From Nostoc sp. CHAB 5834 (GTDB lineage Bacteria > Cyanobacteriota > Cyanobacteriia > Cyanobacteriales > Nostocaceae), in contig JAIVFU010000128.1 of assembly GCA_020829485.1 (NCBI GenBank), forward strand, positions 1-16,397: a stretch of DNA of 16,397 bases, given 5' to 3'. Both the position numbers and the translations under genes were made by a program. Below the pieces are notes generated by a model, which did not search any database, was not told the origin of the DNA, and saw only the letters and a list, made by a program, of their open reading frames with translations. Every line of letters begins with the position of its first letter. Position 1 is the stretch's first letter. Shown in pieces: positions 11,240 through 11,728 of this stretch.

Positions 11240-11728
11240 ATGAAAATGACTATTGAAGAATTGAAGATTGATAATTTTGACTTAATTAGAACTTTATCTC
11301 AACAGTATATTATCGCTAATGGTAGTTTCATTGACATTAATCTGACTCTAGCTCAAATTATTGACAATTTTAATACCCTGTCTGGAACTAGACCAAAACT
11401 TAAGAGTTTGGGAATATATATTGTCATCAGTTTGAAAAATATTTATATTAACCTAAATCAACAATTATGTATTCAAATTGTTAATCAATATATTCATGGT
11501 ATTGGCTGGGATGATTTGCAGTACATTTGTTTTTTTGATATTAATCCAAGTAACGTTTACATTCATATTATTTTTAATCGGGTTACTCCCCAAGGTAAGC
11601 TCATTGATATCAAATACTTGGGGGCTAACTGGCAACAATATGAGGTTTTACGTCAATCTTGTTCTCGGATCTTAGAAAACCCTGCTAATAATAAATATTT
11701 ACAGAGACGCTGCAACTGTTGTCCTTAA
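11240..11728 (+). CDS. Degenerate MOBP-type relaxase-like protein
   Basis: A 162-residue protein starting at the ATG four bases after the coupling-protein stop; an in-frame upstream start at 11186 lies inside that gene and is unlikely. Its pattern matches the N-terminal domain of MOBP/VirD2-type relaxases: a Tyr near the N-terminus (Y23), a short FNTLSGTRPKLKS segment, a strand ending IVIS, then GIGWDDLQYICFFD and IHIIFNRV followed by GK. In active enzymes motif III reads HxD...HxHxxxNR. Here the residues are F98, D100, Y107, H109 and N113-R114, so two of the three metal-binding histidines are lost, and the usual motif-II-like His is Y60. It also lacks the C-terminal half of a relaxase. It is probably not a nuclease, but could bind DNA or the coupling protein. 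The Cys-rich tail (RRCNCC) is odd. Confidence 0.55.
   Translation: MKMTIEELKIDNFDLIRTLSQQYIIANGSFIDINLTLAQIIDNFNTLSGTRPKLKSLGIYIVISLKNIYINLNQQLCIQIVNQYIHGIGWDDLQYICFFDINPSNVYIHIIFNRVTPQGKLIDIKYLGANWQQYEVLRQSCSRILENPANNKYLQRRCNCCP

Follow-up and report, generated by a model that had tools for sequence, protein, structure and literature searches.

A relaxase-domain protein with a lost active site that varies in step with the VirD4 tail: a possible conjugation adaptor in Nostocales plasmids

The 16,397-nucleotide contig JAIVFU010000128.1 of Nostoc sp. CHAB 5834, which we analyzed over its whole length (hereafter the window), carries a small gene, pRlx, next to the gene for a VirD4-type coupling protein. 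It is near certain that pRlx is a genuine relaxase-domain protein with a dead relaxase fold, and we observed that pRlx and the C-terminal tail of VirD4 switch alleles jointly, while the VirD4 core and the downstream gene, which encodes a DUF3854 protein, do not follow. We propose, with somewhat less than even confidence, that pRlx derives from the nuclease domain of a MOBP-type relaxase and that, its active site lost, it was kept in Nostocales plasmids as a non-catalytic part of conjugation and an adaptor for the VirD4 tail. Coordinates are collected in Table 1.

The pRlx open reading frame (ORF) runs uninterrupted for 162 codons, from an ATG at 11240 to a stop ending at 11728. It matches the Pfam relaxase family PF03432 with an E-value of 1.8e-11 (44.9 bits, cut-off 24.6), and no other family is listed up to E 10; within this limit PF01076 (Mob_Pre) is absent, so that pRlx does not fit the MOBV profile. 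The AlphaFold model (predicted local distance difference test, pLDDT, 88.6) has a predicted relaxase (HUH) fold, and the best 25 entries in a VIA-align comparison with this model are all relaxases. A first-pass annotation of this DNA, made from the sequence alone, had described an intact frame with a relaxase fold, and both descriptions are borne out.

We located the active-site equivalents by profile-profile alignment (hhalign) of the pRlx family with 24 cyanobacterial relaxases, taken from 30 loci and picked by a pattern that itself contains HUH (probability 92.6, E 6.3e-8, 162 aligned columns). In pRlx the catalytic Tyr corresponds to L19, the motif II His to Y60 and the HUH triad to D100, Y107 and H109. 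The first-pass annotation had correctly seen Y60 in place of the upstream His, and Y107 and H109 as ligand sites of a broken triad; its first triad member, F98, lies two residues from the true position, D100. Its candidate for the catalytic Tyr, Y23, is in the wrong column, and is a Tyr in 55 of the 114 family proteins described below but in only 2 of 35 representatives.

The family search, which admits only proteins of about 89-284 amino acids, found members of 126-226 amino acids. The resulting set of 114 proteins includes the window's own copy (P0001) and some cases of one locus with different starts, and is reduced to 35 representatives at 80% identity. It also includes three truncated proteins (P0080, P0105, P0113) and P0114, a deletion fusion in which the residues aligned to sites 19 and 60 do not truly correspond to them. 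P0114 (Nostoc favosum, 226 amino acids) joins the start of VirD4 to the C-terminal part of pRlx, apparently by a natural in-frame deletion. When four distant members were scanned against PF03432, three scored under the cut-off.

Across the 114 proteins, site 19 is occupied by L (93), I (11), F (3), Q (2), R (1) and N (1), with three gaps; none of the 111 proteins with a residue there has a Tyr. The motif II site 60 is mostly Tyr (Y 98, K 5, H 4, R 3, S 2, C 1, F 1). For the triad, we count D 68, E 11, K 8, A 7, T 6, Q 4, S 3, H 3, N 2, R 1 and V 1 at site 100, Y 68, E 28, Q 9, H 3, R 3 and one each of N, F and S at site 107, and H 90, D 13, E 6, N 3, V 1 and I 1 at site 109. A complete triad of three His occurs in 0 of 114. 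Only three proteins (P0071, P0072, P0075) combine His at 107 and 109, with E at site 100, and in 17 of the 114 none of the four sites is a His. By contrast, all four His are present in 39 of 39 control PF03432 relaxases and the catalytic Tyr in 38, the 39th (L104) having an ORF start downstream of the Tyr. These controls (30 best matches from other genomes and nine from sister plasmids) were not chosen by the HUH pattern, but are the best-scoring matches to the profile built from the 24 relaxases. As the same losses recur family-wide, a sequencing error in the window is no explanation. Judged by its sequence, pRlx is catalytically dead and does not belong among relaxases as an enzyme.

The gene is nonetheless conserved. 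The ratio of nonsynonymous to synonymous substitution rates (dN/dS, Nei-Gojobori method, 22 gene copies) has a median of 0.16 and a maximum of 0.35, with 222 of 231 pairs usable (dS 0.1-1.5), which shows that the gene is under purifying selection. Eight residues (Y84, D92, L93, Q94, N113, R114, Q133, Y134) are invariant in 114 of 114 proteins, and W90 is found in 113. Controls share the equivalents of Y84, Q94 and R114 in 31, 35 and 38 of 39 cases, respectively, while the L93 equivalent is N, S or C in all 39, that of D92 is D in 8, that of N113 is N in 4 and that of W90 is F or Y in 37. Going by these alignments, the active site is gone from the family while another residue set is held. The relaxase match and fold, the family-wide losses set against intact controls, and the low dN/dS mark pRlx as a conserved pseudo-enzyme rather than an error or a decaying gene, in agreement with the retained pseudo-enzyme suggested at first pass.

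Co-variation ties pRlx to the VirD4 tail. In close loci the VirD4 cores are 95-99% identical, and the VirD4 C-terminal tail and pRlx come as two alleles. Between 8 allele-I loci, including the window, and 5 allele-II loci (allele-I loci L002 and L030 excluded, gapped columns skipped), we found 66 fixed nucleotide differences, all within 11137-11771, a span made up of the last ~32 VirD4 codons, pRlx and intergenic sequence. None falls in the ~1.5 kb upstream or the ~1.3 kb downstream (about 9.6-13.1 kb compared). Because the allele groups were picked by pRlx, what is informative is how far the differences extend into VirD4 and that they end before the DUF3854 gene. That the alleles are independent of the core is seen in locus L010, which is 98.7% identical to the window in the VirD4 core, whereas its tail reaches 75.7% and its pRlx 76.9%. 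With the VirD4 core controlled for, the partial correlation of VirD4 residues 560-592 with pRlx is 0.78, 0.85 and 0.96 (20, 19 and 14 loci), against 0.20, 0.18 and 0.10 for residues 1-33 of the DUF3854 protein. VirD4 residues 1-40, though variable, have no positive link to pRlx.

By tblastn, pRlx is found in 15 of 72,556 plasmid records, every one from Nostocales. A class-wide sample of 388 genomes holds clear copies in two, G001 (four places, one divergent at 6.0e-15) and G492, and weak matches (1.0e-7 to 2.8e-4) in five others, within ORFs of 376-710 amino acids. Among 33 loci retrieved via pRlx, some of them near copies, the DUF3854 gene lies downstream in 33 and VirD4 upstream in 32, so that the coupling-protein neighbour of the first-pass annotation holds. 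The exception, L018 of Desmonostoc muscorum (10001-10174), keeps pRlx only as its C-terminal third (query residues 104-161), and nothing upstream of it matches VirD4.

The same plasmids encode another relaxase. Each of 14 plasmid records searched has exactly one MOBV match, always with the motif HLDE.TPHIH, and the 15th record is annotated mobV; MOB-suite types the 15 as MOBV or no relaxase. In 13 of the 14, pRlx is the only PF03432 match, and the Nodularia record has none, its pRlx being too divergent. Related draft genomes have MOBV genes in seven of seven cases, not tied to the pRlx contig, and on related plasmids the MOBV gene is located elsewhere on the record, away from pRlx. The earlier view that pRlx sits where a relaxase belongs is therefore half right: the locus adjoins VirD4, but the MOBV gene lies apart. 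MOBV is presumably the nicking enzyme of pRlx plasmids; pRlx, some copies of which are annotated 'relaxase/mobilization nuclease domain-containing protein', is very unlikely to be. As the plasmid of the window is incomplete here, its own MOBV relaxase is one that we infer. According to a part of PMC8600333, pCC7120alpha is a known conjugative plasmid with relaxase alr7199, virB4 alr7206 and virD4 alr7213, and its MOBV typing is cited there. Given the conserved gene order, its gene after virD4 would be pRlx. The host of this plasmid, Anabaena/Nostoc sp. PCC 7120, is a laboratory strain and non-pathogenic.

In the mechanism that we favor, the MOBV relaxase would do the nicking and pRlx would dock on the VirD4 C-terminal tail, linking the coupling protein to the relaxosome through the MOBV relaxase, the single strand of the origin of transfer (oriT) or the DUF3854 protein, with the outcome that the pump engages its own plasmid. 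The action would resemble that of TraM on TraD, a re-used relaxase fold replacing a ribbon-helix-helix protein. A coupling-protein adaptor had been offered as a possibility at first pass; the fixed place after VirD4, the co-switching of the tail and the separate MOBV on each of the 15 records fit it, while the role itself, with its docking, DNA binding and effect on transfer, is what we infer from them. If correct, a conserved dead relaxase at the coupling protein would add a new kind of part to the relaxosome, and through pRlx the recognition of a plasmid by its own coupling protein could be studied directly. We may also hypothesize, though we think it rather unlikely, that the dead relaxase fits the VirD4 tail as key fits lock, the two making up a swappable cassette, in which pRlx, with a relaxase fold unable to cut, would read relaxosome identity and license the coupling protein for its own plasmid only. 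Several closely related conjugative plasmids could then share a cell (compare Nostoc sp. C052, with three pRlx plasmids and a fourth carrying a divergent copy), and a MOBV relaxase could work with a secretion system even though MOBP relaxases prevail among the nearest sisters of that system.

These sisters emerge from VirD4 matches of at least 64% identity, which comprise 33 plasmids, 15 with and 18 without pRlx by tblastn. MOBP relatives among the matches listed (60 of 103) represent 16 of the 18 sisters; of the remaining two, AP025019 has no MOBP and AP018291 is not among the matches listed. We domain-searched 11 records, ten of the 18 sisters and NZ_AP023442, which was reached through VirB4. 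Nine of the 11 carry a MOBP relaxase with all four His, and neither MOBP nor MOBV was found in NZ_AP023442 by this search. After VirD4, directly or past a small gene, the sisters have a gene whose product is similar, mostly at 31-36% identity, to the C-terminal part of the DUF3854 protein. A protein of this kind from a different genome (P0211) gave no DUF3854 match in a scan. The position of pRlx is held by a different small gene in L092 of Chroococcidiopsis (16685-16978, 97 amino acids) and L099 of Calothrix (2113-2382, 89 amino acids). Ten sister VirD4 C-termini include five ending in AYKSFF and two in AYKGFF; tails of the pRlx group show other near-end motifs, such as VGSMVN, IKSIL or VRSML. 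These end motifs are a possible docking peptide.

Several observations weigh against the adaptor. Although pRlx accompanies MOBV in 15 records, the link is not strict either way, since Calothrix PCC 7716 p1 has two MOBV matches with neither pRlx nor MOBP, and pC052_E of Nostoc C052 has a divergent pRlx and a MOBP relaxase with no MOBV match. Close linkage, or a shared recombination tract around a diverse gene, may have dragged the VirD4 tail along; the fixed differences inside pRlx hold by construction, the groups being defined by pRlx, and VirD4 residues 500-559 are also linked to it, less strongly than the tail (0.44, 0.37, 0.48). The DUF3854 control is weaker than it appears, because that gene starts farther from pRlx (about 50-320 bp between matches in 14 close loci, against 8-9 bp to the VirD4 match in the loci measured) and varies little at its start (residues 1-33 nearly uniform in close loci, mean difference 0.03). 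In a coarser test on 12 plasmids, the partial correlation of pRlx given VirB4 is 0.59 with the DUF3854 protein against 0.43 with VirD4, and only 0.18 (p 0.11) with MOBV; given VirD4 instead, it is 0.59 (p 0.002) with MOBV and 0.63 with DUF3854. This test omits NZ_AP023443, whose DUF3854 gene lies outside the locus, NZ_CP047243, which is a near copy, and AP018319, whose VirD4 is interrupted, and the HK-01 VirB4 is borrowed from its sister plasmid. Finally, the transfer region of the window itself looks damaged; our conclusions on pRlx rest on the family and not on the window copy.

The divergent pRlx of pC052_E is an unannotated ORF (L094, 1986-2615) with a C-terminal extension, located between VirD4 and the downstream gene; the VirD4 end at this locus is of the sister type.

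Comparison with known systems sets pRlx apart. The MOBP/MOBQ relaxase domain (MobA of R1162, 2ns6; NES, 4ht4; PF03432) has the catalytic Tyr, the motif II His and the HUH triad that pRlx lacks, whereas the invariant D92 and L93 and the nearly invariant W90 of the pRlx family distinguish it from the controls. The MOBV relaxase of the same plasmids is a separate gene that retains HLDE.TPHIH, while pRlx matches PF03432 and not Mob_Pre. TraM of F and TrwA of R388 offer an analogy for the proposed non-catalytic link at the coupling protein: parts of PMC6362355 and PMC12117103 describe them as accessory proteins of the relaxosome with ribbon-helix-helix DNA-binding domains, both docking on the coupling protein and TraM doing so at the C-terminal tail of the latter. 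As a possible adaptor pRlx would act in a TraM-like way, yet it is no member of the TraM family: its model has a relaxase fold, Pfam lists PF03432 alone up to E 10 with no ribbon-helix-helix domain, and its putative docking is suggested indirectly, by co-variation with VirD4 560-592. The vestigial helicase domain of F TraI, as presented in a part of PMC12117103, is a conceptual parallel, being likewise a retained vestigial copy of a transfer-enzyme domain; it is however a helicase inside the relaxase chain, and pRlx a free-standing dead nuclease domain.

Among other readings of pRlx, an improbable one makes it the partner of the DUF3854 protein, guiding this primase-like protein to transferred single-stranded DNA in a split relaxase-primase arrangement. 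A part of PMC10079941 relates the DUF3854 domain to Toprim, the DUF3854 gene follows pRlx at every locus checked, and the two whole-protein distances co-vary in the 12-plasmid test given VirB4. At close range, however, pRlx shows little co-variation with segments of DUF3854 (at most 0.20), sister plasmid L091 has a gene related to the DUF3854 C-terminal region directly after VirD4 with no pRlx between, and PF03432 is listed for 0 of 101 relatives of that region.

Relaxase folds bind DNA hairpins, and a regulator needs no catalysis. It is thus conceivable, though doubtful and less probable than a DUF3854 partnership, that pRlx is a sequence-specific DNA-binding protein that recognizes a hairpin resembling an oriT or a promoter, and that the transfer operon is repressed or timed by it. 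The co-variation of pRlx is with the VirD4 tail, contrary to this idea, and we found no promoter or terminator signal above chance in 8900-12300 and no Rfam match in the window. That pRlx is a functionless, decaying relic of a lost MOBP relaxase is very unlikely: it evolves fast (4.07 times the VirD4 distance in 12 plasmids) and degraded forms such as the L018 fragment and the P0114 fusion exist, but dN/dS, the eight invariant residues and the kept place argue against decay. Least credible is that pRlx still works as a relaxase, using a new metal set or, as put forward at first pass, no metal. A metal could be bound by D or E at site 100 (present in 79 of 114) and by the H found at 109 in 90 of 114, but no Tyr occupies the nucleophile column, no substitute nucleophile is conserved, the ligand sites are not conserved jointly and MOBV is present on the same plasmids.

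Table 1. Location of pRlx and surrounding features in the window
Feature	Position	Strand	Evidence
pRlx, catalytically dead MOBP-type (PF03432) relaxase-domain protein, 162 amino acids	11240..11728	+	ORF, Pfam, AlphaFold, profile alignment
VirD4-type coupling protein (type IV coupling protein, T4CP), 592 amino acids	9457..11235	+	PF10412 5.4e-27, PF12696 7.9e-26, PF02534 3.3e-21
VirD4 C-terminal tail, residues 560-592, varying in step with pRlx	11134..11232	+	
Allele-switching stretch: VirD4 tail, pRlx and intergenic sequence	11137..11771	+	Fixed-difference comparison
DUF3854 protein gene, 3' end truncated relative to L020	11776..14952	+	
VirB4-like type IV secretion system ATPase, 939 amino acids	3080..5899	+	Named by position; weak AAA/FtsK matches
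Two more transfer-operon genes, 248 and 400 amino acids	7439..9384	+	Same order in L020
Response regulator gene, frequent module neighbour in relatives	15524..16177	+	Annotation of relatives

Compared with L020, from whose annotation the missing gene contents were read, the window has three gaps. One of ~0.8 kb (6883-6895) lies inside a hypothetical operon gene; one of ~2.1 kb (7424-7426) removes most of a VirB10-like gene and part of the preceding gene; and a deletion of ~2.0 kb at 14893-14897, with a 5-bp overlap, cuts off the DUF3854 gene at its 3' end and takes the gene after it together with a portion of a histidine kinase gene. Either the transfer region of the window is decaying or the contig is misassembled. 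The VirB4-like gene lies equally upstream of VirD4 in annotated plasmid loci. On two plasmids (L025, 20461-20835; L026, 20548-20958), the N-terminal 124-136 residues of the DUF3854 protein form a separate ORF.
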